A stretch of DNA of 41,341 bases from Candidatus Rifleibacteriota bacterium (lineage in GTDB: Bacteria > Muiribacteriota > Ozemobacteria > Ozemobacterales > Ozemobacteraceae): contig JAAYVD010000050.1 of NCBI GenBank assembly GCA_012517355.1, forward strand, positions 87,350-128,690. Reading direction: 5' to 3'. Shown here one piece after another: positions 3,993 through 41,341 of this stretch. The notes beneath the pieces were generated by a model that saw nothing but the letters and a program-made list of their open reading frames with translations, did not search any database and was not told where the DNA came from. The translations under genes and the position numbers were made by a program. Within the stretch, counting starts at the first letter, position 1; each line of letters opens with the position of its first letter.

Positions 3993-4541
3993 GAACCGTT
4001 CCAGCGTGTGGGTCTCCCCGCCTTCGGGGCCCGAGGAAACGGTGACCGTCACGAAGAACCCGACGCTGCCCTCGACCGTGGCCCGGCGCCACCGCAGGAC
4101 GGTCGGCAGGCCACGGGCGAAGGTGTGCCCTTCCCCCTCGTCTCCCGCCTCGGCCCCGGATCCAGTAACCGTGCGGGTCACCCCCAGGCCGCCGGCGGCC
4201 GGCCGGTAGGAGGCCGCCACTTCGCCCGCGGGGCTCAGCAGCCGCAGGATCATGCTGCCGCCTGGTCCGGGGTCGGCCTGGACCGCCCGCTCCAGGTCGC
4301 GCTCGATGCGGGAAAGGAGGATCCCGGCGTTCTGCACGGTGGTCAGGTGGGCCGCCCCCTTCTGCGAGATCCGCATTCCGCCCGACAGGAGGCGGGTGAC
4401 CGCCACCGCCAGGATGGCCCCGATCAACACGGCCATCATCAGCTCGACCACGGTCACCCCCCGTCTCACGGGCACCGCCCCTCTCACGGCCGTCGCCCCG
4501 CTCGCGGTCCCCCCCAGTCTCACGGTCCCCCCGCGTCTCAC
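3933..4541 (-). CDS. GspJ/PilW-like pseudopilin
   Basis: About 202 residues. The prepilin motif RRG|VTVVELMM precedes one hydrophobic helix (VLIGAILAVAVTRLL), as in type IV pilin-like proteins cleaved and methylated by prepilin peptidase. The rest (SRIERDLERAVQ, then beta-rich sequence with LRLLSPAGEVAASYR) resembles the GspJ/PulJ/PilW minor pseudopilin group. GTG 4541 overlaps the TGA of the upstream pilin gene as GTGA, so it is probably coupled. Further in-frame GTG codons at 4523, 4487, 4469 and 4451 arise from an 18-bp repeat. GTG 4469 would give the short leader MRRG, so the true start is uncertain. It is the last gene of a minus-strand pilin-like operon. The specific GspJ assignment is less sure than pseudopilin. 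Confidence 0.85.
   Translation of the reverse strand: MRRGGTVRLGGTASGATAVRGAVPVRRGVTVVELMMAVLIGAILAVAVTRLLSGGMRISQKGAAHLTTVQNAGILLSRIERDLERAVQADPGPGGSMILRLLSPAGEVAASYRPAAGGLGVTRTVTGSGAEAGDEGEGHTFARGLPTVLRWRRATVEGSVGFFVTVTVSSGPEGGETHTLERFILCRNDPATRARLTTGWTW
4452..4541 (-). repeat. Five tandem 18-bp units spanning start codon and prepilin leader
   Basis: On the minus strand five units follow each other: GTGAGACGCGGGGGGACC, GTGAGACTGGGGGGGACC, GCGAGCGGGGCGACGGCC, GTGAGAGGGGCGGTGCCC and GTGAGACGGGGGGTGACC. Four begin with a potential GTG start. The first, second and last encode V-R-x-G-x-T-like hexapeptides, and the last is the functional RRG|VT prepilin cleavage site. The array starts at the GTGA overlap with the upstream gene. 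Confidence 0.85.
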
Positions 4542-5143
4542 GGCCGCCTCCCCGCGAAGACCAGGCCGGTCAGGGCGAATTGCTGCGCCACCCCGCCGGT
4601 GGTCCAGGTCACCTCGGCCAGGATGATGCGATAGTCGATCGGCCAATCGGCATTCCCCGGAGGCAGGACCTGCCCGGTCACCGTCAGGAAGCGGCGGAAC
4701 CGCGGATCGACCGGGGTGCCGCCGGCCACGACGGGAACCTCGCGGCGCTGATTCGCGGCGGGGTCCAACCGGTCGAACCCCTGGGCCTGCGCGAAATCGA
4801 CCAGTTCCGCCGCCCAGGCGTGTGCCAGGATCTCGTCGCGGGTCATCATCGTTCCCATGTTCCCCCGCGAAAACAGATAAAAGACCGGCAGCAGGCCGCA
4901 CGACAGCACCGCCACCCCGATGATCACCTCGAGGAGCGACAGACCCCAGCGAGGCCAGGTGTGACCGGCCCCGGCCACACGAATCCGGCCCCCCCCACGA
5001 GGGCAGCGGTCTCCGGGCCACCCGACCGACACGAGGTCGGCCACACCCCTTTGCCGCCACGGCTGGCGGCGCGGGACGCCCATTTCGCCCACCGCCAAGG
5101 GGCCGCCCGCGGCTGCATTCTTCCGCCCGGTCATCCCACCCAT
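4538..5143 (-). CDS. GspI/PilV-like pseudopilin with palindromic-element insert in its leader
   Basis: 201 residues. The pilin signature WG|LSLLEVIIGVAVLSCGLLPV is followed by a short soluble part with ILAHAWAAELVDFAQAQGF, typical of GspI/PilV minor pilins. ATG 5143 lies one base after the TGA of the upstream gene with GGTGGAG before it, so it is probably coupled. Residues of about 13-43, between this ATG and the cleavage site, are encoded by a copy of the dispersed 82-bp element, giving an unusually long leader of about 70 residues. An internal in-frame GTG near 4970 would give a normal-length leader but lacks a clear Shine-Dalgarno. The gene overlaps the next one by 4 bp. Role: minor subunit of a pilus or secretion pseudopilus. 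Confidence 0.85.
   Translation of the reverse strand: MGGMTGRKNAAAGGPLAVGEMGVPRRQPWRQRGVADLVSVGWPGDRCPRGGGRIRVAGAGHTWPRWGLSLLEVIIGVAVLSCGLLPVFYLFSRGNMGTMMTRDEILAHAWAAELVDFAQAQGFDRLDPAANQRREVPVVAGGTPVDPRFRRFLTVTGQVLPPGNADWPIDYRIILAEVTWTTGGVAQQFALTGLVFAGRRP
5022..5108 (+). repeat. Dispersed ~82-bp palindromic element, copy R1
   Basis: Begins CCGACCGACACGAGGTCGG and contains CCCCTTTGC, CGCCAcggcTGGCG and a closing CCAAGGGG. The third arm has decayed. It lies in frame inside the leader of the GspI-like pseudopilin on the opposite strand, which reads it as GVPRRQPWRQRGVADLVSVG. Confidence 0.85.
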
Positions 5144-5144
5144 C

Positions 5145-7622
5145 TCACTCCACCACCAGGGGCGAGGGTTCGAAACTGAAGCCCAGCAGCGGCTCCTCGC
5201 TCTGTTCCGCGGGCGGCGGCTCCCCGGTGCCCGGCCGGGGGGTGGGCAGCGCGGCCAGGGCCGGAAAGTAGGTCAGGGTGCCTCCGGGGAACCCGGCCAG
5301 GTCGGCCGGGCCCGTGCAGAACCGCTTCATCACCACGTTGCCGGTCACCTGCAGGCCGGGCCCGCCGCCGAAGACCACCCGCCCGCCCGCCACCAGCGAC
5401 GCCTGCACGCGCGCCCCGGCCGGCGTCTCGAGACGGATGTCCCCCCGGGGGGCGGCCAGCAGCAGGATCTCCCGGGACCGGGCCGGGAACTGGGGTTCGA
5501 GGGGGGCCCGCACCACCCAGTCGCCGTCCTCCAGGACCAGCGCGCCGTTGCCGACGAACCGCCAGGGCCGCTCGAGGACCACCCGCCGGTCGGCGCTGGA
5601 GACCACCACCAGCCCGTCCAGGAACAGCACGTCCCGCCACAGCAGTCCCCGGCGTTGCAGCGCGGTGGACAGATCGGGGTCGCCCGCCCCCGGCAGCTCG
5701 ATCCGGTGGGTCACCCGCCCCGCCGCCCCCAGCGAGGCCAGGAAGGGGGCCATCTCCCGCAGGGTGGCCCCCGCCGGGGCGGCCCGGACGAAGGGAGCGG
5801 GCACCCCGTGCAGGGCATCCGCAGGAATGACAGGTCGGAAGAAATCGTACAAATGATCACTTTCGGACACGACCGTCCAGGGATCGGGAACCCGGTTGTT
5901 GTGCGCGAACGCCAGGCCGAGGTTGTACGACCGGCTGGCCACGAACGAACTGTAGTGCAGCAGGTAGCGGGCGAGCTCCCCCCGGATCGGCGAGAGCAGC
6001 CCCGCCCGCACCAGCGGCACCAGCTTGCCGTTGGCGGTCTGCGCCTCGATCAGGAACCGGTCCTCCTCCTCGTACAAAAACAGCCGTTCCCGCGTCCGGC
6101 CCTCCGGGCTGTTCCAGGGCGGGCCGGCCAGCGGCGGCCAGGCGTAGATGCGCGCCAGCAGGGTCATCGACCGGACGTCCCCCAGCACCAGGGTCGGCGA
6201 CCGGTTGCCGTCCACCCCGTTGGGGCGAAGCAGGGAACTGGATTCCACCCGCAGGGTGTCCCGGAAGGCCGGCCACAGACCCGGCGCAAACTCCCGGATC
6301 AGGTCGTAGAACAGCCGCACGCTGTTGTGCGGGCTGGGGGACATGCCTACGTCCATCTGGAACAGGTCGAGGGGCTGTCCATCGGGAGTGCGGGTCGCCA
6401 GCACCTTGTAGAAACCGTCCCCGTTGGGGCGGCGGAACAGCTGGAACCCCTCCCCCGCCCCCGATCCCGCGTTCCCCGGCGGGGAATGGGCCAGGTTCAG
6501 CACCACCGTGCCGGTGCCCCCGAGGTAGACCAGGCCACGCGGGCCGGTCACCAGGTCCCGCCAGGTGGTCGGCACCGGCAGCGGTCCGTGCGGACCACCG
6601 TGATCCCCGTCCGCGTCGAAGACCAGGGGACGGGCGGGCGAGGTGGCGAGCACCTCGCCGTTCTCGTCGACCGCCACCTGGTTCAGCCCGTGGAACGACC
6701 CTGGCCCCGGCTGCCCCATGTCTTCCGCGTAGAAGACGAATTTCGACAGCACCGGCACCAGCGCCGCCGTCACCTTCACCCGGCACCGGAACTGGAACTC
6801 CTCCACCAGCTCCGGCCGCGCCCCCTTCCGCTGCCGCACCACCACGGTCAGGCGAACCGCCCCCCGCTTCTCCCGCGGATATCCCGCCGCCGCCAGCCCG
6901 GTTTCCTCGAAATCCTCCGGCTCGCACCGGTAGCGGATCTCGAACCCGAATGACCCTTCGCGCGCCAGGGGAGCGGTGAGCGCCTGCCCCACCGCGAACA
7001 GGTCGCTGGTCGCGGTCTCCTCCAGGTCCACCTGGCCTGTCACCGGCCGCATCTCCGACCGCGGCCTGGCCAGTTCCCGGAACAGCGGGGCCAGGGACGG
7101 GCTATCGGCGTCGGTCACGGGGAACGGACCGTTCCCGCCCTGGGCCAGCAGCGGCCCATACTGCAACTTGTGCACCGCCAGCGTCGCCAGGCCGAACGCC
7201 GCCCGCGACAGGATGCCCTGTTTCCCAGCCCGCTCGCTGAGCCGCCGCTGCTGCAGCATGTAGTGGAAATACCCGACCGCGAACAGGGTCACGCAGAAAA
7301 GGGTCCCGACCGCGATCAGCAGGAACGAACCCCGACGGCCCCTGGGCGGTGCGCGAAACCCGCGCTGCGCGCCGCCATTCCTGACGGCAAAGGGGAAGCC
7401 CTTCCGACGTCGTGTCGGTCGGGTCCGACCGGCAGGAGATCGGATGGTCTTCCCTGTTGCCTCCAGCGACGGCAGCGCGAAACCCCCGTTCCCCGCCTCG
7501 CCGGGGGACCGCCCGGGCTGACCTCGGCAGAGCCTTCCCGTGGCCACCGCGGGGAAAGCCGCGCATCCCCCGGTTCGCGCCTTCCCAAGGAACCCTCCGG
7601 CCGACGCTAGGGGCGACACCAT
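5145..7622 (-). CDS. Large GspK/PilX-like envelope protein with pilin-type N-terminus
   Basis: About 825 residues. A pilin-like motif, RRG|SFLLIAVGTLFCVTLFAVGY, is followed by a helical segment (LQQRRLSERAGKQGILSRAAF) as in PilX/GspK-type minor pilins. Then comes a very large region I do not recognise, far longer than ordinary GspK (about 320 residues). The stretch before the cleavage site, roughly residues 1-100, is made of two to three copies of the dispersed palindromic element; the nearer copies contain no in-frame ATG, GTG or TTG, so translation must start upstream, and I chose ATG 7622. This lies 16 bases after the stop of the SH3 gene. Probably part of an envelope-spanning pseudopilus or surface assembly with the two downstream pilin-like proteins. 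Confidence 0.75.
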   Translation of the reverse strand: MVSPLASAGGFLGKARTGGCAAFPAVATGRLCRGQPGRSPGEAGNGGFALPSLEATGKTIRSPAGRTRPTRRRKGFPFAVRNGGAQRGFRAPPRGRRGSFLLIAVGTLFCVTLFAVGYFHYMLQQRRLSERAGKQGILSRAAFGLATLAVHKLQYGPLLAQGGNGPFPVTDADSPSLAPLFRELARPRSEMRPVTGQVDLEETATSDLFAVGQALTAPLAREGSFGFEIRYRCEPEDFEETGLAAAGYPREKRGAVRLTVVVRQRKGARPELVEEFQFRCRVKVTAALVPVLSKFVFYAEDMGQPGPGSFHGLNQVAVDENGEVLATSPARPLVFDADGDHGGPHGPLPVPTTWRDLVTGPRGLVYLGGTGTVVLNLAHSPPGNAGSGAGEGFQLFRRPNGDGFYKVLATRTPDGQPLDLFQMDVGMSPSPHNSVRLFYDLIREFAPGLWPAFRDTLRVESSSLLRPNGVDGNRSPTLVLGDVRSMTLLARIYAWPPLAGPPWNSPEGRTRERLFLYEEEDRFLIEAQTANGKLVPLVRAGLLSPIRGELARYLLHYSSFVASRSYNLGLAFAHNNRVPDPWTVVSESDHLYDFFRPVIPADALHGVPAPFVRAAPAGATLREMAPFLASLGAAGRVTHRIELPGAGDPDLSTALQRRGLLWRDVLFLDGLVVVSSADRRVVLERPWRFVGNGALVLEDGDWVVRAPLEPQFPARSREILLLAAPRGDIRLETPAGARVQASLVAGGRVVFGGGPGLQVTGNVVMKRFCTGPADLAGFPGGTLTYFPALAALPTPRPGTGEPPPAEQSEEPLLGFSFEPSPLVVE
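7338..7423 (-). repeat. Dispersed palindromic element, copy R2
   Basis: Minus-strand copy starting CCCGACCGACACGACGTCGG, then CCCCTTTGCCGTC and GGTTTCGCGCACCG. It is in frame within the prepilin leader of the 5145-7622 gene, immediately before the RRG cleavage motif, and is read as RPTRRRKGFPFAVRNGGAQ. It is head to head with R3. Confidence 0.85.
7424..7510 (+). repeat. Dispersed palindromic element, degenerate copy R3
   Basis: Plus-strand copy with CCGACCGGCAGGAGATCGG, then CCCTGTTGCCTCC, GGCAGCGCGAAACCCCCGTT and CCGGGGGA. Its 5' end abuts the 5' end of R2, forming an inverted pair in the same leader region. Confidence 0.65.
7520..7600 (+). repeat. Possible further degenerate palindromic element, R4
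   Basis: CTCGGCAGAGCCTTCCC, GGGGAAAGCCGCGC and GGTTCGCGCCTTCCC follow the order of element blocks but with many changes. It lies just downstream of the chosen ATG 7622 of the same gene. Confidence 0.35.
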
Positions 7623-11301: not shown

Positions 11302-11643
11302 ATGAAATCCTGGAATCGCGCTCTGTCGGTGTTTTTTTGCGTCCTGGCCGTGGCCATCCTGCTCGGATGCCGTCTGAACCCGTTCGAACGTCACGACGAC
11401 GGAGAGGATGTCAGTCCCGTGGCGGTGGTCGAAACGCCGTTCACCATGGCGGTATCGGTATCCGGCCTGGAAGCCGGCATCACCTTCACGGCGGCGCTCC
11501 AAGCCTCTCCCGCAGCCGCCCTCCAGGCTTCCCCCCCGCTGGAGGTGCCTGTTTCTCCCCCGGCAGATCTGCCGGCCGGTGCGACCCGGGCTGCCCTGGC
11601 GATTCCCCTGAGTTCGCTCGGATTCTGGATTCTGGGGACGTGA
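11302..11643 (+). CDS. Small lipoprotein, possibly truncated by a repeat
   Basis: 113 residues. GGAGGGG precedes ATG 11302. The N-terminus is a lipoprotein signal peptide with lipobox ILLGC (Cys near residue 23). The rest is low-complexity: a Val/Ser segment, then Ala/Pro-rich repeats (AALQASPAAALQASPPLEV). The last codons and stop (FWILGT) fall inside the direct repeat that begins at 11627, and the same bases recur at the start of the second repeat copy. The original 3' end has therefore probably been replaced. Function unknown. Confidence 0.6.
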   Translation: MKSWNRALSVFFCVLAVAILLGCRLNPFERHDDGEDVSPVAVVETPFTMAVSVSGLEAGITFTAALQASPAAALQASPPLEVPVSPPADLPAGATRAALAIPLSSLGFWILGT

Positions 11644-12066
11644 TATCGAATTCGAAACGCGGGGCCAACCAGACCCCCCAAAAAACACGAATCCACCCCG
11701 CCGGATCCGCTGCATCTCCGATCAGCGTATCCCGAAGGGGTGATGGGCTGCCTAAGCGGCCCCGCCTGGACGGCGGGAGTGGCAGGGGGCTCGCCGCCCG
11801 CGTCAGGTCCGCCGAATGCGGCATTCGGCCGGGGCGCGCAGCCGGCCAGGGGCCGGGCGCAAGCGGCATTACAGGCGGCGCCACGGAAGGCGCCGGCTGG
11901 AAGGACGCTTGTCCTTCTCCCGACCCCGGTGCCGCCTTCCCGGCGGGAGCCCGCAGGGAAGTGTTTCGCGAAACCCCGTCGCGACCAGCCGTTCAGAGCG
12001 GGGCGCGCAGCCGGGGGCGCCCAGCCCGGCCCCGCAGCCGGCGGGCGCCGCCGAAGCCACGGGGCC
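11627..12066. repeat. Long GC-rich direct repeat, copy 1
   Basis: Begins GGATTCTGGGGACGTGATAT and is collinear with copy 2 at 12964 (offset 1,337 bp). Shared blocks include a hairpin-forming CCCCGCCTGgACGGCGGG-like stretch, GAATGCGGCATTCGGCC, AAGTGTTTCGCGAAACCCCG and GGGCGCGCAGCCGGGGGCGC. No credible coding frame. It lies directly downstream (3') of the YafQ-type toxin gene. Confidence 0.85.
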
Positions 12067-12963: not shown

Positions 12964-13427
12964 GGATTCTGGGGACGTGATATCGAATTCGAAACGCGGG
13001 GCCAACCGACCCTCACAAAACACGAATCCAACCCCCCGGATCCGCTGCCTCTCCAATCAGCGTACCACGAAGGGGTGATGGGTTGCCTAGGCGGCCCCGC
13101 CTGAACGGCGGGACTGGCAGGGGGCTCGCCGCCCGCGTCAGGTCCGCCGAATGCGGCATTCGGCCGGGGCGCGCAGCCGGCCAGGGGCCATGCGCAAGGC
13201 ACATGACAAGACGCCCCAGGGAAGGCGAGGCTTGGCGTGGGCCTTGTCCTTCTCCCGTTCCCGGTGCCGCCTTCCCTGCGGGAGCCCGCAGGGAAGTGTT
13301 TCGCGAAACCCCGCCGCGACCAGCCGTTCAGAGCGGGGCGCGCAGCCGGGGGCGCCCAGCCCGGGCGCGCAGCCGGGGGCGTTCAGCCCTGCCCCGCAAC
13401 CGGCGGGCGCCGGAGCCAAGGGGCCGC
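12964..13427. repeat. Long GC-rich direct repeat, copy 2
   Basis: Same order of blocks as copy 1, starting GGATTCTGGGGACGTGATAT. It differs by small indels and by an internal duplication of GCGCGCAGCCGGGGGCG near 13337-13382. It lies 3' of the YgiT-type antitoxin gene, just as copy 1 lies 3' of the YafQ gene. The flanking stretch 13428-13568 shows no gene. Confidence 0.85.
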
Positions 13428-15198: not shown

Positions 15199-15281
15199 TC
15201 GACCGGCACGAGGTCGGAAATACGCCCCTGGCAGCCACGAATGGCCGCGTCAATCACCCGTGATGCGCAGCGGTTGGGGCC
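15199..15281 (+). repeat. Dispersed palindromic element, copy R5 (degenerate)
   Basis: CGACCGGCACGAGGTCGGAA, then GCCCCTGGCAGCCACGAATG and GGTTGGGGCC. Intergenic; tandem with R6, one base apart. The rest of the 14985-15491 gap holds only this pair and two promoters. Confidence 0.7.
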
Positions 15282-15282
15282 C

Positions 15283-15366
15283 GCCCGACACGACGTCGGA
15301 AGGGGGCCCCTTGGCCGCCACGGGTGGCGGCGCGAAACGCCCGTTTCGCGCACCGCGAAGGGCCCG
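15283..15366 (+). repeat. Dispersed palindromic element, copy R6
   Basis: CCCGACACGACGTCGGAAGG, GGCCCCTTGGCCGCCAC, GGTGGCGGCGCGAAACGC, CGTTTCGCGCACCG and AAGGGCCC. Both inner arms are intact. Intergenic, upstream of the SPFH promoter. Confidence 0.88.
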
Positions 15367-26739: not shown

Positions 26740-26754
26740 AGGAGGCAGATCGTG
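26740..26754 (+). promoter_or_regulatory. Shine-Dalgarno deciding the TonB receptor start
   Basis: AGGAGG at 26740-26745, six bases (CAGATC), then GTG at 26752. This places initiation upstream of palindromic element R7, so R7 must be translated. Confidence 0.8.
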
Positions 26755-28950
26755 GTCAGCCCGAGAGAGAGGTGTCCGGTTTCGTCCCGCCCGGGAGAAG
26801 ACCGTCCCCGGAAGAGGTGGTTTGGGAACCGGACCTGCGCGACGTCGGAATGGCTTCCCCTTTGCCGCCAAGGATGGCAACGCGCAACACCCGCTTCGGG
26901 CACCCCGAGGGGAACATCGTCGGGCCCCCACCGGCCCGCACCGTTCCGCCCCGCCCCCCTGGCAGGACTGGCGTTCTGCCTTGGGCTCCTCTGGACGCTC
27001 GTCGCCTGCCCGGCCACCGGCGCTTCCGTCCCCCAGAACCGGTCCTTGCAGGAACTGGTAAGCCTCAGCCTCGAAGACCTGGCCAACGTGGTCGTGTCGA
27101 CCCCGTCCAAGAGCGCCCAGCGCCTGCCCGAGGTTCCCGCCACCGTCCGCGTCATCACCGCCCAGGACCTCCGCGACCGTGGCTGTCTCACCCTCGAGGA
27201 GGCCCTCGCCGACCTTCCCGGCATCCAGTTCCGCAACCTCGTCGGGTTTAACGGGTATGCCTTTTTCCGGGGGGTTCCCAACCAGAACAACCACGTCCTC
27301 CTCATGATCGACGGGGTGCAGGTCAACGAACTCAACTCCGGTGGGTTCTACCTGGGCGGCCAGTACAACCTGGCCAACGTCGAACGCATCGAGGTCGTCT
27401 ACGGCCCCGCCTCCTCGATGTACGGCACCAACGCGGTCGGCGGGGTGATCAACCTCATCACCCGCGACCCGCAGGACACCCCCGGACTCCGTGTCAGCAC
27501 GCTCTTTGGCGGGTTCGACACCCGGCGGCAGGACTTCACCTGGCGATCGCACGACGCGGAGCAGGACCTCGGGATCAGCCTGTCGGGCATGCTCAAGTCG
27601 GGTGACAAGGCCGACCTGCGCGGTTCGCGCGGCGACGGGAACTGGTCCGGTTCCCTCGACACCTCCGAACAGGACGCCGCCCTCGACGCCAAAATCCGCT
27701 GCCGGCGCGTCACCGTGGGCCTGAACCTGCTCGACAAGGAAGCCTCCTATGCGACGAAAGACCGCAGCACCGGCACCGCCCTGCAGGATTTCGACGTCCC
27801 CTGGCACATCCGGTTCCTGAACACCTGGGCCCGGTATGACTTCCGGCGGGCCGACCGCTGGTCGTGGAGCTCCACCGCCTACTACCGCGACACCACCGTC
27901 GAAGACGACACCCGCCCCGTGATCAGCCGGCCCACCGCGACCGACCCGGGCTACCGGGAACGCTGGTTCCGCCCCAACCACCTGGTCGGGCTCGAGAACC
28001 GGTACGACGGCACCCTCGGGCCTCACCTTTCCCTCAACCTGGGACATTTGCGGGAAACCGAAACGCTGGCCGCCGGGTTCGCCAGGTCCCGCAGCGCCGC
28101 CTGGTCCGTGGAGCCCGAGGCCCCGGCCCGGCCGGACATGCTCACCAACGACCTGACCAGCCTCTACGCCCAGCTCACCTGGCACCTGTCCGAGCCGCTG
28201 CGCCTGACGGTCGGCTCCCGTTACGACGACAGCGACGTCTACGGCACCGTGAACACCCCGCGGCTGGGGCTGGTCTACAACCGGGGCCGGTGCAACGCCA
28301 AGCTCCTCTACGCCGAAGCCTACCGGGCCCCCAAGCCCTGGGATTTCCGCGACGGGCTGGGCAACCCCGACCTCGCCCCCGAAACCATGCGCTCGTCCGA
28401 ACTGGCCGTGGGATACCGGTTCGCCGAAAACCTGCGAGCCGAGATCTCCCTCTATCGGAACGTGCTCGCCAACTGCCTGACCCGGGAAAACTCCGCCGCC
28501 GGCTGGCGGTGGGTCAACCTGGGCAAGGTGCGCACGACCGGGTGTGAAGGAACCCTGGAATACCGCCGGGGCAAGGGTAGGTCCTACCTGAACCTCACCT
28601 ACACCGATGCCGACGATTCCACCGGCCGGGCCGTGCCCGAGATCGCCCTCCACACGGCGAACGCGGGATGCCAGTATGCCTTCACCGACCGGGTGAAGTT
28701 CGATCTCCGCGGGCAGTATCTCGGCCGCCGGCGGAACCCCCCGACCACGGCGGCCGGGGGCGACCCCGAGATCGACGATGCCTTCGTGATGAACGGGACG
28801 CTGAGCCTCGCCGACGTCGCCGGATGCGACGTCCAGATCGCCGGCCGCAACCTTCTCGACGCGAAGTATTTCCACACTTCGAACACCACCGTGAGCCGCT
28901 ACCGGCAGCCGCAACGGTCTGTCTCCCTCGAGATCGCCCGTCGGTTCTGA
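26752..28950 (+). CDS. TonB-dependent outer-membrane receptor with element-derived signal-peptide extension
   Basis: 732 residues from GTG 26752. About 65 polar residues, of which some 28 come from element R7, precede the signal-peptide core (LAGLAFCLGLLWTLVACPATGA). The plug follows: SLEDLANVVVSTPSKSAQRL, VRVITAQDLRDRG, LADLPGIQF, DGVQVNEL, and NVERIEVVYGPASSMYGTNA with GGVINLITR. The remainder is a beta-barrel ending in the terminal aromatic strand RSVSLEIARRF. It imports a chelated nutrient (siderophore, haem, cobalamin or other metal complex) using TonB energy; specificity is not evident and no TonB or ABC partner is in the window. No in-frame ATG, GTG or TTG lies between R7 and the hydrophobic core. 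Confidence 0.92.
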   Translation: MVSPRERCPVSSRPGEDRPRKRWFGNRTCATSEWLPLCRQGWQRATPASGTPRGTSSGPHRPAPFRPAPLAGLAFCLGLLWTLVACPATGASVPQNRSLQELVSLSLEDLANVVVSTPSKSAQRLPEVPATVRVITAQDLRDRGCLTLEEALADLPGIQFRNLVGFNGYAFFRGVPNQNNHVLLMIDGVQVNELNSGGFYLGGQYNLANVERIEVVYGPASSMYGTNAVGGVINLITRDPQDTPGLRVSTLFGGFDTRRQDFTWRSHDAEQDLGISLSGMLKSGDKADLRGSRGDGNWSGSLDTSEQDAALDAKIRCRRVTVGLNLLDKEASYATKDRSTGTALQDFDVPWHIRFLNTWARYDFRRADRWSWSSTAYYRDTTVEDDTRPVISRPTATDPGYRERWFRPNHLVGLENRYDGTLGPHLSLNLGHLRETETLAAGFARSRSAAWSVEPEAPARPDMLTNDLTSLYAQLTWHLSEPLRLTVGSRYDDSDVYGTVNTPRLGLVYNRGRCNAKLLYAEAYRAPKPWDFRDGLGNPDLAPETMRSSELAVGYRFAENLRAEISLYRNVLANCLTRENSAAGWRWVNLGKVRTTGCEGTLEYRRGKGRSYLNLTYTDADDSTGRAVPEIALHTANAGCQYAFTDRVKFDLRGQYLGRRRNPPTTAAGGDPEIDDAFVMNGTLSLADVAGCDVQIAGRNLLDAKYFHTSNTTVSRYRQPQRSVSLEIARRF
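26829..26914 (+). repeat. Dispersed palindromic element, copy R7
   Basis: Blocks CCGGACCTGCGCGACGTCGG, CTTCCCCTTTGCCGCCA, GGATGGCAACGCGCAACACC and CCCCGAGGGGAAC. Inside the TonB receptor gene, between the start and signal-peptide core, read as CATSEWLPLCRQGWQRATPA. The structure has partly decayed. Confidence 0.8.
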
Positions 28951-29104: not shown

Positions 29105-30427
29105 ATGACCCGTCACCAGTCCGCCTGGCCACGCGAACGACACGCCGTCGGCAAGGCTTCCCCTGTGCCGCCACCAAGGGCGGCACGAAACCCCTGTGGC
29201 GCGCCCCGCCCGGGGGCAGGCCGTGACGAAGGGGGCCACCCTCTTTCGCCGCCCCGGAGGGGGGCCCGCAACCTCCGTTTCGCGCCTCGCCAGCGAGCCC
29301 TCAGATGGTTGGGCTTGGCCATCGTTCTCCTGGCGGTGGCCGGGTCGGGCCCGGTCGGGGCGGCCGCTCCCCGGCCCGACCGACACGACGTCGGAAGTGC
29401 CCCCTTGCCGCCAGGGATGGCGGCGCGAAACGCCAGTTTCGCGCATCGCAAGGGGGCCGACCGACACGACGTCGGAAGTGGGCCGCGGGCGCCAGGATGG
29501 CGCATCCTCCGCGGACCCACCCCCGCCATCCAAGCCCAGTGGCAGGAGCAGGCGCGGCTGGCCGAACGGGCCGCCCTGCCCTGGGTCACCGACATCGAGA
29601 CCTGGCACGAGCGCCGCACCCTCGCCGTGGCCCGCCACGACTTCCCCAGCCTCCTCCGCCTGCGCGACACCGAATGGCGCATCTACTGGAACGAGGAACG
29701 CTCGGGCGGGATCACGAGTGCCCTGTCGATCGACGGCGCCACGGAATTCCGCAGTGAGCCCGACTTCCGCATCCGCAACGGCGGCCGCGGCTCACCCGAG
29801 GCCGTCGTCGGCCACCCGTGGGTCGTCCCCCTCGCCACCGGGTTCCGGATGTACTACCACGGCGACGCACGCTGGCAGCCGCGGGTCGGGGAAGCTCCGA
29901 TCATGCGCGTGTTCAGCGCCTGGTCCCGGAACGGCCGCCACTTCTTCGGCGAGGGGGTCCGCCTCGACCTCGGCGACCGCACCGGCCTCGACCTCGCCGC
30001 CCACCCCTGTGTCCGCCCCATGCCCGACGGCACCTGGCGGATGTGGTTCACCGCCGTCCGCAACGGATCCGGAGGCCGCCCGTGCGTCCTCGGGGCCGCC
30101 TCGGCCGACGGCCTCGCCTGGCGGCCCGACCCCGTCCCGACCATGGACGGAGCCTCCGATCCCCTGGTGTTCGAGCGGGCTGGACGCTGGGTCATGTTCG
30201 CCCGGTTCGGCGCCGACAACGTGCTGCTGCTGAGTTCCCCCGACGGACTCGTCTTCCACCCCCAGGCCTGGGTCGAGTTCTTCGACGCCCGCGGCCTCCG
30301 ACTCTCCGGCTTCGTCCCCGCCGAGGTGCTCGACGCCGCCGACGGCCGGGTGCGGGTGCTGGGCACCGGCGACCATTCGCGCGGTCTCGGCCTGTTCGAG
30401 CGGCACGAAAACCGATGGCCCCACTGA
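29105..30427 (+). CDS. Secreted five-bladed beta-propeller (GH43/GH32-like) protein with elements around its signal peptide
   Basis: 440 residues. ATG 29105 follows AAGGA. Residues of about 9-65 derive from elements R8 and R9. The signal-peptide core follows (LRWLGLAIVLLAVAGSGPV, about 66-84), then residues 91-138 from R10 and R11. The mature part repeats blade-like strands: WRIYWNEERSGGITSALS, GFRMYYHGDARWQ, TWRMWFTAVRNGSGGRPCVL, SADGLAWRPDPVPTMDGASD, and RWVMFARFGADNVLLLSSPD. This is the pattern of glycoside hydrolase clan beta-propellers, though the catalytic acids cannot be assigned with confidence. It may hydrolyse or bind an extracellular glycan. Finding an export signal sandwiched between two element pairs in one open frame is very unusual. 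Confidence 0.8.
   Translation: MTRHQSAWPRERHAVGKASPVPPPRAARNPCGAPRPGAGRDEGGHPLSPPRRGARNLRFAPRQRALRWLGLAIVLLAVAGSGPVGAAAPRPDRHDVGSAPLPPGMAARNASFAHRKGADRHDVGSGPRAPGWRILRGPTPAIQAQWQEQARLAERAALPWVTDIETWHERRTLAVARHDFPSLLRLRDTEWRIYWNEERSGGITSALSIDGATEFRSEPDFRIRNGGRGSPEAVVGHPWVVPLATGFRMYYHGDARWQPRVGEAPIMRVFSAWSRNGRHFFGEGVRLDLGDRTGLDLAAHPCVRPMPDGTWRMWFTAVRNGSGGRPCVLGAASADGLAWRPDPVPTMDGASDPLVFERAGRWVMFARFGADNVLLLSSPDGLVFHPQAWVEFFDARGLRLSGFVPAEVLDAADGRVRVLGTGDHSRGLGLFERHENRWPH
29131..29216 (+). repeat. Dispersed palindromic element, copy R8 (degenerate)
   Basis: CGAACGACACGCCGTCGG, GCTTCCCCTGTGCCGCC, GGGCGGCACGAAACCCC and CGGGGGC. In frame between start and signal peptide of the propeller gene. Confidence 0.7.
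29217..29299 (+). repeat. Dispersed palindromic element, copy R9 (degenerate)
   Basis: CCGTGACGAAGGGGGC, CCTCTTTCGCCGCCCCGG, CCCGCAACCTCCGTTTCGCG and CTCGCCAGCGAG. Adjoins R8 and runs up to the signal-peptide core. Confidence 0.65.
29376..29457 (+). repeat. Dispersed palindromic element, copy R10
   Basis: CCGACCGACACGACGTCGGA, outer stem CCCCCTTGC/GCAAGGGGG, arms CGCCAgggaTGGCG and GCGAAACgccaGTTTCGC, all intact. The outer stem has C-G where R14 has T-A, a compensatory change. In frame just after the signal peptide. Confidence 0.9.
29457..29520 (+). repeat. Dispersed palindromic element, partial copy R11
   Basis: Begins CCGACCGACACGACGTCGGA, sharing its first bases with the end of R10, then diverges after GGCCGCGGGCGCCAGGATGG. 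In frame in the propeller gene. Confidence 0.7.
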
Positions 30428-32605: not shown

Positions 32606-32663
32606 CAAACATCAATTTGCGCCATTCGCGGGCATCTCCCGGAATGAAAGGACCGGAAAACCA

Positions 32664-32912
32664 CCCCTTCCTCGGACCCTCTTGCCACGCCACGATGTGC
32701 TGACCCCGCTCGCCCTTTCCCCTTCCTTCCCCGTTTCCCCTGCCGTTCCTGAGGTAGAAGCCAACCCGCCAGGCTCTTCAAATGCCGGGTCCTCTCCCTT
32801 CCCCCCACCTTCCTCGGACCCTCTTGCCACGCCACGATGCGCTGACCCCGCTCGCCCTTTCCCCTTCCTTCCCCGTTTCCCCTGCCGTTCCTGAGGTACA
32901 GGCCAACCCCCC
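32664..32912 (+). repeat. Tandem duplication, period 142 bp
   Basis: Copies at 32664-32770 and 32806-32912 are almost identical over about 105 bases (CTTGCCACGCCACGATG, CTGACCCCGCTCGCCC, GTTCCTGAGGTA). A diverged relative (CCTGCCACGCCAAAATGTCC) lies at 41083-41165. No gene is seen in 32606-33046. Confidence 0.85.
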
Positions 32913-33046
32913 AGAGCGGTCAAAAAACCGGTCCTGCCCCGGATGCCTGGCCATCAACCGAAACCCCTTGACGCTCCTGGAGCGGCTATTGCAAACAGGC
33001 CCTGTCGGTTCGCGGATATCTGCGCCCCTTCCCCTGGCGCGGGCAG

Positions 33047-35004: not shown

Positions 35005-35086
35005 TGACCGACACGATGTCGGAAATACCCCTTTGCCGCCATGGATGGCAGCGCGAAACGCCCGTTACGCGCACCGCAAAGGGGCC
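35005..35086 (+). repeat. Dispersed palindromic element, copy R12
   Basis: TGACCGACACGATGTCGGAA, outer stem CCCCTTTGC/GCAAAGGGG intact, arm GCGAAACGCCCGTTACGC with one mismatch. Intergenic, upstream of carD, tandem with R13. Confidence 0.92.
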
Positions 35087-35170
35087 GACCGACGACACGA
35101 TGTCGGCCTTGTCCCCTTGCCGCCACGGATGGCAGCGCGAAACGCCCGTTTCGCGCATCGCAAGGTGGCC
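35085..35170 (+). repeat. Dispersed palindromic element, copy R13
   Basis: CCGACCGACGACACGATGTC (a 3-base insertion), CCCCTTGC/GCAAGGTGG outer stem and an intact GCGAAACgcccGTTTCGC arm. It shares two bases with the end of R12 and lies 54 bases before carD. The rest of 34880-35224 is the L25 terminator. Confidence 0.92.
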
Positions 35171-36848: not shown

Positions 36849-38030
36849 TTATTTCGAAATCGTGATCGTCCAGGTGGCCGCCGCGGCGTCGAACCCGGCC
36901 ACGGCGTCGGTGTGGGAAAGGACCCCATCGGAGTTGACCACCACCCGCTGGAAGGCCAGGCGGTCCTCGCCCGACCAGACGGGGGCATGCGGGCCCCAGT
37001 CCTCGCCCTCGAAGGTGGCCTCCAGGGTGGCTTTTCCCTGCCGCACCGCGTAGATCTTCAAGGCGTTGGCCAGATACCCGGCCTGCAGATCGAGACTGGC
37101 CGTGCAGAAACGCGTCCAGCCGGGAGAAAAGACCGGCACATGGTCGAGCTGGACCTTTTCCCCGGACTTCAGCAGAACCAGGGTGCAGCCGCTCCATTCC
37201 CAGCCGGTGGCAAAGAGCACCACCATCCGCACCTCGGGGAAGAACCGCCCGAAACAATACCGGATACACGATTCGCCATACGACAGGTCGTCCTCGAACC
37301 GGAGGGTGCGACCGGCGTCCGTCCTGACCAGAAGGGTCCGCACCTCGCGTTTCACCACCCCACCGGTCTCGGCCAGCCGCCGCTCCTCGTCCCTGACCCA
37401 CGCTCCCAGGCTCTGCCCATACCAGTCCATGGAATAGGGGGGGGCCTGCGAGAGGTCTTCCTCCACGGGATCGGTCGAGACGAACCCGCCGAACACATAC
37501 CCCTCGCGGCCGTCCACCCGCACCTTCCACCAGAACTCTTCCCGGCCCTCGATCGTCTCCTGCTTTCCCTGGCGGGTCTCGACGACTTCCAGCCGCGTCC
37601 CGTAGGCGACCCGGCCCAGGGGCTTCCCCTGCCGGTCAGGGGTCGCGCGCAGCACCAGGCCGCTCTTGGCACTGACCAGGCCGGTCGGCAAGGGTGGCTC
37701 CTTCTCCTCCGCCGACGGCTCTCCATCCGGGGCGTCCGCCATCCGGGGGGCTGATCCGACCGACACGATGTCGGCCATACCCCTTTGCCGCCACGGATGG
37801 CGGCGCGAAACGCCGGTTTCGCGCACCGCAAAGGGGCCCTCCACCGACACGGTCTGGGAGGCCCCATCCAAGACGGTTCCGGCCTGGGCGGCTCCAGCCT
37901 GGGCGGCTCCAGCCTGGGCAGGCACCGGCGCCAGGAACAGCCAGGCACCGAGCCAGGCCATTCCGACCACCCCGATCACGTTGGCCTGCACCCACGAACC
38001 CGGCGCCATACGAATCCTGCGGATCTTCAT
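36849..38030 (-). CDS. Exported SH3 protein with palindromic element after its signal peptide
   Basis: 393 residues from ATG 38030. The signal peptide (VIGVVGMAWLGAWLFLAPVP) is followed by a 15-bp triplicate giving QAGAAQAGAAQAG, then residues of about 64-92 encoded by element R14 (GPFAVRETGVSRRHPWRQRG), and a Glu/Pro-rich linker. A bacterial SH3 domain follows (SGLVLRATPDRQGKPLGRVA to FWWKVRVDGREGYVFGGFVS, about 120-190). The last 200 residues are beta-rich (TLRFEDDLSYGESCIRYCFG, VVLFATGWEWSGCTLVLLKS) and I do not recognise them. Probably periplasmic, ligand unknown. Third exported SH3 protein of this window; the other two are at 7639 and 30591. Confidence 0.82.
   Translation of the reverse strand: MKIRRIRMAPGSWVQANVIGVVGMAWLGAWLFLAPVPAQAGAAQAGAAQAGTVLDGASQTVSVEGPFAVRETGVSRRHPWRQRGMADIVSVGSAPRMADAPDGEPSAEEKEPPLPTGLVSAKSGLVLRATPDRQGKPLGRVAYGTRLEVVETRQGKQETIEGREEFWWKVRVDGREGYVFGGFVSTDPVEEDLSQAPPYSMDWYGQSLGAWVRDEERRLAETGGVVKREVRTLLVRTDAGRTLRFEDDLSYGESCIRYCFGRFFPEVRMVVLFATGWEWSGCTLVLLKSGEKVQLDHVPVFSPGWTRFCTASLDLQAGYLANALKIYAVRQGKATLEATFEGEDWGPHAPVWSGEDRLAFQRVVVNSDGVLSHTDAVAGFDAAAATWTITISK
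37756..37838 (+). repeat. Dispersed palindromic element, copy R14 (most intact)
   Basis: CCGACacgatGTCGG hairpin, then outer stem CCCCTTTGC (37780-37788) with GCAAAGGGG (37828-37836), enclosing CGCCAcggaTGGCG (37789-37802) and a 9-bp arm GCGCGAAAC/GTTTCGCGC with loop GCCG (37803-37824). A perfect three-way junction. It lies in frame in the SH3 gene on the opposite strand. Confidence 0.95.
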
Positions 38031-40921: not shown

Positions 40922-41039
40922 CCGCGGAGCGGGGCTTCCGCGAGGTGAACGCGTCAGCGTTCACCTCGCCAGAAAGAAGGGTCCAGGGCCATCGGCCCTG
41001 GTGGGGTGAAGGGGCAAAGCCCCTTCGGCCGTCCCTTTT
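40922..41039 (+). terminator. Cluster of four perfect hairpins
   Basis: CGCGGA/TCCGCG (40923-40942), a 12-bp stem CGAGGTGAACGC-gtca-GCGTTCACCTCG (40941-40968), CCAGGGCC-atc-GGCCCTGG (40983-41001), and GAAGGGGC-aaa-GCCCCTTC (41008-41026) followed by CCCTTTT. It probably terminates the CoA-transferase transcript, but four stems in 105 bases exceed what that needs. Confidence 0.6.
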
Positions 41040-41341
41040 GCACATCCTTGTCCCTTCCCCACACCCCCAGATCCCAAACAATCCTGCCACGCCAAAATGT
41101 CCTGACACCCTTGCGCCTTTCCCCCCCTTCCACGTCGCCCCTCGGCGCTCGCGAGGGGTCTGACAACGTGCGGAAGTCCCGGTTCTTCTGATCGGAAGCC
41201 GCCTCATCACCGGTGGTTCCGTTTCCGGTTTTCCGGCGATGGTCCCGTTCGATGCCCCCTGCGGTGCGTTGACCTGAAGCGGATCTCCGGGGCGGTTACC
41301 CCGCTCGGGGACCGGGGCCACTTCCGGTGAACGGAAAAACC
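41040..41341. other. Non-coding end of window
   Basis: No gene is seen. 41083-41165 is a diverged copy of the 142-bp-period repeat at 32664. A small CCCCTCGGCGCTCGCGAGGGG hairpin lies within it. Confidence 0.4.

Follow-up and report, generated by a model that had tools for sequence, protein, structure and literature searches.

RESULTS

Copies of a palindromic repeat in the window

The window, the whole 41,341-nt stretch of DNA analyzed here, is part of contig C124 in the 7.1-Mb, 184-contig genome (G000) of an uncultured Ozemobacter bacterium. The closest relatives compared were Candidatus Ozemobacter sibiricus BY5 (G001) and an Ozemobacteraceae MAG (G002). A palindromic repeat, here called the element, occurs in the window inside five genes for exported proteins and between genes:

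4538 to 5143, minus strand: gene of a GspI-like prepilin, motif ...RWG/LSLLEVIIGVAVL
5024 to 5101, plus strand: element copy in the GspI-like prepilin leader (nhmmer E-value 3.3e-16)
5145 to 7622, minus strand: gene of a GspK-like prepilin, leader about 97 residues long, start set by hand
7341 to 7420, minus strand: element copy immediately before the GspK-like prepilin motif RRG/SFLLIAVGTLF (nhmmer E-value 3.4e-16)
7427 to 7506, plus strand: second copy in the GspK-like leader, in the opposite orientation (nhmmer E-value 6.2e-11)
15201 to 15361, plus strand: two intergenic copies upstream of a Band_7 gene (nhmmer)
26752 to 28950, plus strand: gene of a TonB-dependent receptor with Plug and TonB_dep_Rec_b-barrel matches
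26832 to 26911, plus strand: element copy before the h-region of the receptor's signal peptide (nhmmer E-value 3.7e-12)
29105 to 30427, plus strand: gene of an exported beta-propeller-like protein with three A copies and one B copy, all in frame
29136 to 29214, plus strand: element copy before the beta-propeller h-region (nhmmer)
29222 to 29293, plus strand: degenerate element copy before the same h-region (nhmmer)
29378 to 29454, plus strand: element copy after this h-region (nhmmer E-value 1.1e-21)
29456 to 29522, plus strand: type B copy in the beta-propeller gene, with many matches in G002
35006 to 35165, plus strand: two copies in the intergenic region that separates the L25 and CarD genes (nhmmer)
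36849 to 38030, minus strand: gene of an exported SH3_3 protein, ATG at 38030, SH3_3 domain at residues 123 to 185 (E-value 7.6e-12)
37755 to 37843, plus strand, opposite to the gene: element copy R14 in the SH3 gene (nhmmer match 37758 to 37835, E-value 1.3e-21)

R14 lies in frame, and the SH3 protein runs from the signal peptide MKIRRIRMAPGSWVQANVIGVVGMAWLGAWLFLAPVPAQAGA through the element-coded stretch GPFAVRETGVSRRHPWRQRGMADIVSVG to the SH3_3 domain. The predicted folds of this copy have energies of -45.9 kcal/mol on the plus strand (z-score, -4.7) and -50.9 kcal/mol on the minus strand (z-score, -3.7). An earlier note on this DNA regarded R14 as the most perfect copy, but at 77.0 bits it scores just below the copy at 29378 to 29454 (77.2 bits), and better copies exist in the genome. 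The same note was right that the in-gene copies of the window are confined to five genes for exported proteins and adjoin hydrophobic segments, with the qualification that a GTG downstream of the copy in the GspI-like gene leaves the true start of that gene ambiguous. In the GspK-like gene, the copies are followed by the prepilin motif and h-segment with no in-frame start intervening. Upstream of its copy the TonB receptor gene has AGGAGG followed by a GTG start, and the stretch from the copy to the h-region is free of start codons. Pfam returned no match for the beta-propeller-like protein, whose name is that of the earlier note; in its orthologues in G001 and G002 the signal peptide runs directly into the mature part, whereas here an A and a B copy lie between them. 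No counterparts of the SH3 and TonB genes were found at the syntenic places of G001 and G002.

The window holds other repeats. Two further families (40922 to 41030 and 41202 to 41341) recur frequently in G002; the former is present in G001 as well, in a few copies. A 300-nt direct repeat (11675 to 11974 and 13010 to 13309) has units 1,335 nt apart that are 88% identical, and two tandem 138-nt repeats at 32661 to 32940 are likewise 88% identical.

Structure and copy number of the element

The element is about 81 to 84 nt long and of the non-autonomous palindromic type, with the consensus (C)CCGACCGACACGAYGTCGGAAGTGCCCCTTTGCCGCCACGGATGGCGGCGCGAAACGCCCGTTTCGCGCACCGCMAAGGGGCC. A 5' head hairpin, CCGAC...GTCGG, is followed by the stem CCCCTTTGC...GCAAAGGGG around two hairpins, giving a three-way junction. 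The pairs of the consensus fold contain 106 compensatory cells against a mean of 67 in shuffles (shuffle maximum, 82), an excess that lends the fold modest support. An Rfam search of the window gave no family match above the gathering score. All six reading frames of the consensus are free of stop codons, as are those of 3.6% of shuffled versions (P = 0.036). Of the head-to-tail spacings between tandem copies, all 22 in-gene ones and 18 of 29 intergenic ones are 81 or 84 nt; intergenic spacings of 80, 82, 83, and other lengths also occur. The type B variant keeps the CCGAC...GTCGG head and has a different palindromic body; it is rare in this genome and commoner in G002. Six clear type B copies were seen in the sample described below, counting that of the window (29456 to 29522; G000 C54:91547, C153:64318, C71:94089, C34:46268, and C71:21531), and four of these six clearest copies are in genes.

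Searched with a single copy, this genome yielded 55 matches with 488 first-look candidates; 57 relative genomes together yielded only two weak matches, both in G002. Exact-pattern scans of collections of genome contigs and viral contigs found no match, nor did plasmid and phage searches. For the detailed tally we joined thirteen contigs or contig parts into a 1.495-Mb sample, in which an iterated nhmmer search identified 227 copies forming 168 arrays. Extrapolation to the whole genome gives about 1,080 copies, roughly 1,000, which may be high because the contigs were partly picked for carrying strong copies. Genes were called by a home-made caller that treated element bases as neutral, and hydrophobicity stood in for SignalP. 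Nine N-terminally hit genes have hand-set starts and were excluded from the permutation test. Only 54 of the 168 arrays lie inside confident genes, though such genes make up 85% of the sample (P = 4e-55).

In-gene copies are enriched beside export signals

Of the 54 arrays, 26 are located within residues 1 to 100 and 22 within residues 1 to 60, against expectations of 12.0 and 7.2 in the same genes; mid-protein positions hold 22 (34.9 expected) and the last 60 residues 6 (7.2 expected). Of the 21 genes struck in their first 60 residues, 18 carry a hydrophobic segment at the N terminus, compared with 46% of all genes (P = 2e-4). Arrays in the first 60 residues of genes with a hydrophobic N terminus number 18 against 3.5 expected, and 10,000 random in-gene placements never gave more than 14. 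With the hand-set starts included there are 88 in-gene copies, 49 of them near the N terminus, where 35 precede and 4 follow the hydrophobic segment. The earlier note had placed every in-gene copy within about 100 residues of the start and next to an export segment. The tally and permutation test of the sample uphold the strong enrichment beside export signals but not its exclusiveness, as 28 of the 54 in-gene arrays lie beyond residue 100.

We recognized 33 prepilin-like genes in the sample, and 6 of them have a leader copy where about 1 would be expected (hypergeometric P = 3e-4); this expectation comes from the share of N-terminally hit genes, whose number was rounded to 30. Prepilin peptidase removes the leader of a prepilin, so extra leader residues should not show in the mature protein.

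Are these leader copies translated? In 18 of the 25 genes with copies before the hydrophobic segment there is no ATG, GTG, or TTG between the segment and the nearest copy; these genes must therefore start upstream of or within that copy. Several leader genes also have AGGAGG or GGAGG ahead of the upstream start.

No flank motif was seen around the copies (at most 0.08 bit beyond the element ends), and leader, deep, and intergenic copies are equally similar to the consensus. Genes near intergenic copies show no enrichment for export segments, with 49 to 52% against 46 to 50% (67 genes with a copy within 250 nt upstream and 90 with a copy downstream).

Copies deep in enzymes and domains

Several of the 28 arrays deeper than residue 100 lie in frame inside cytosolic enzymes. 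The cytosolic repair enzyme MutY has two inserts near its N terminus, after MPSLT and between LPWR and DPYAILVSEIMLQQT, both absent from MutY of G001 and G002; an AlphaFold prediction from a three-sequence input had a pLDDT of 43, too low to be of use. NadB aligns with its relatives to residue 398 and again from about residue 516, and the stretch between comprises 23 residues in G001 and about 117 here. An SDR epimerase and UvrA have in-frame copies where the relatives, judged by match coordinates only, have no extra residues. A UvrA-type protein (G000 C124:11577-17831) has 2,084 residues, about twice the length of the relatives' open frames, with at least two inserts compared with them.

Some copies split a Pfam domain match or are spanned by one (ABC1 kinase-like, Epimerase, YdjC, ATP-grasp, and GAF), and others sit in the C-terminal tails of AnmK, an M20 peptidase, an alpha/beta hydrolase, and an ABC ATPase. 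At G000 C50:60435-63712, consecutive genes for a YdjC-like protein, an ATP-grasp protein, and a glycosyltransferase carry four element arrays within 3.3 kb.

The statement that no copy interrupts a cytosolic enzyme or a folded domain is thus contradicted by MutY, NadB, UvrA, and the SDR epimerase, and for folded domains also by the in-domain copies of the ABC1 kinase-like, YdjC, ATP-grasp, and GAF proteins. The earlier note had named deep copies at the expected frequency as the finding that would overturn its view, and this is borne out only by half: deep copies exist, but mid-protein arrays remain below expectation (22 against 34.9).

Reading frames of the copies

Leader copies are read in five frames and in both orientations; the sixth frame is contributed by deep copies. 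Leader and deep arrays differ in their use of frames (chi-square P = 5e-4), and two strongly basic frames, a pair chosen post hoc, account for 12 of 28 leader arrays and none of 28 deep arrays. The difference in frame use implies that peptide chemistry matters. The n-regions of signal peptides are positively charged, and the frame bias speaks for a filter on peptide chemistry that matches such n-regions. It may reflect tolerance, or it could reflect a mild benefit.

DISCUSSION

The element resembles known coding repeats. Rickettsia palindromic elements (RPEs; Ogata et al. 2000, reviewed in PMC2229807 and PMC10969869) are likewise short palindromes found in frame in unrelated genes, conserved enzymes included, whose proteins apparently stay functional, and they too come in several families per genus. 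In-frame insertion in diverse genes that are still open is what we found in MutY, NadB, the SDR epimerase, UvrA, and the leader genes. By description, RPEs are set apart by their length (105 to 146 nt, compared with about 82 nt) and their number (tens of copies rather than about 1,000), and the host of our element belongs to the GC-rich Riflebacteria. Moreover, RPEs are reviewed as encoding a conserved peptide, whereas the element has no conserved frame or peptide and uses all six frames, five of them in leaders. The intragenic REPs of the GTAG and CGTC super-families (PMC3733652) are also mostly intergenic palindromes, sometimes at the N termini of ORFs and often in multimers. The element differs in being a larger three-way-junction unit with head-to-tail tandems of 81 or 84 nt and in that its leader copies are mostly forced to be coding and tied to export segments. 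Its consensus lacks GTAG and has no unpaired CGTC tag at the foot of a hairpin; CGTC or TGTC is confined to the arm of the head hairpin. The uvrA gene hosts intragenic REPs in other bacteria (PMC3733652), and that UvrA carries the element here is a coincidence.

A RAYT was considered as the mobilizer and rejected: the genome has one Y1_Tnp gene, and the surrounding 3.3 kb contain no element. This RAYT-like Y1 transposase gene (L166; G000 C109, about 4387 to 4713) is flanked by a different repeat, GTTCGGTATCAYGTCCCCGGAACTC, to which sequences at 11627 to 11686 and 12964 to 13023 of the window are similar. One RAYT-like gene is present in G002, and none was found in G001. Because the element departs from RPEs in its frames and from REPs in its tag and the RAYT, we assign it to neither, although it works like RPEs and intragenic REPs. 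Open-frame MITEs (ERIC/RU-1, YPAL/RU-2, and short Correia; PMC2229807) are similarly small and non-autonomous, with stop-free variants that fuse in frame, and YPAL/RU-2 has been reported as part of a signal peptide (PMC2229807). No conserved motif was seen in the flanks of the element, and terminal inverted repeats and target-site duplications like those of MITEs are not demonstrated for it.

Why, then, do the in-gene copies gather beside export signals? We consider it likely that a non-autonomous palindromic repeat has no obvious preference for insertion sites and persists in frame wherever its peptide is harmless. In this Ozemobacter species it would have multiplied to roughly 1,000 copies, landing without an evident target motif. 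Because the consensus is stop-free in six frames and the unit usually measures 81 or 84 nt, translation can pass through a copy and add about 27 to 28 residues. Placement, open frames, enrichment, and insert-free relatives are observed; beyond them, we infer that selection purges copies from most coding positions and spares sites where the extra peptide does no harm. At the N terminus such sites would extend from the start codon to the h-region in signal peptides and prepilins, and would include positions just past the cleavage site; leader residues would later be cleaved off or kept as a cytosolic tail. Interdomain linkers, surface loops, and C-terminal tails would be further tolerant sites, with leaders the most forgiving place for the insert. 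If copies survive where the peptide is harmless, the link to export is a survival bias and not a function. The C-terminal tails count against this explanation, since they are not enriched (6 arrays against 7.2 expected), contrary to a pure model in which protein ends are tolerant. The differing frame use of leader and deep copies, the lack of any mobilizing enzyme linked to the element, and the dependence on home-made or hand-set gene starts also weigh against it. Of the options that the earlier note offered, tolerance fits best, though these are not the only positions that tolerate the insert, while targeting and a modular leader are disfavored.

A model in which export-signal regions attract insertion through their DNA or chromosomal context would account for the 18 arrays (3.5 expected) near the starts of genes with a hydrophobic N terminus and for the leader copies in 6 of 33 prepilin-like genes (about 1 expected; hypergeometric P = 3e-4). 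We nevertheless find it highly improbable, as the flanks are motif-free (at most 0.08 bit), half of the in-gene copies are elsewhere, and intergenic copies are not biased to exported genes. This last observation also argues against the suspicion that the N-terminal copies are really 5' untranslated, their coding appearance being due to mis-called starts and to the absence of stop codons from the element, an argument made for many N-terminal REPs (PMC3733652). A strong ribosome site does follow the copy in some arrays, which we counted as intergenic, and translation of the GspI-like gene and of a few others could begin downstream of the copy. However, 18 of the 25 leader genes lack an in-frame start between copy and h-segment, and the export bias is limited to copies called coding and absent for copies upstream of genes, which makes a general mis-calling of starts unlikely. 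Export signals seem to tolerate landing copies, as one place among others, and not to be what the element aims at.

The copies might instead serve as modular leaders, or as mRNA structures that govern the translation or export of secreted proteins. Their very stable folds on either strand and the preference for basic frames before h-regions, as positive n-regions would want, are in keeping with such a role. A single functional leader peptide is nonetheless disfavored, because leaders use five frames and both orientations; in addition, only some exported genes have a copy, the relatives' beta-propeller orthologues do without one, and 5' intergenic copies are unbiased toward exported genes. We therefore give this role little credence and favor survival at harmless sites.

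The coding palindromic repeats described before were chiefly those of Rickettsia and scattered REPs, whose N-terminal copies were suspected to be mis-annotations, and we found no description of a comparable repeat in Riflebacteria in the literature searched. The copy number of the element is large enough to measure how proteins tolerate a random 28-residue insert. The resulting map shows real insertions in housekeeping enzymes and a strong bias, specific to coding copies, toward survival in export leaders, prepilin leaders among them. It is conceivable, if rather doubtful, that the n-regions of signal peptides and prepilins form a systematic reservoir for the spreading repeat, with element-coded leaders of 28 to 85 residues in many exported proteins that are frame-filtered for positive charge and possibly tune export. 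If this were true, the copies would constitute a natural, large-scale map of the leader extensions that the export machinery accepts.
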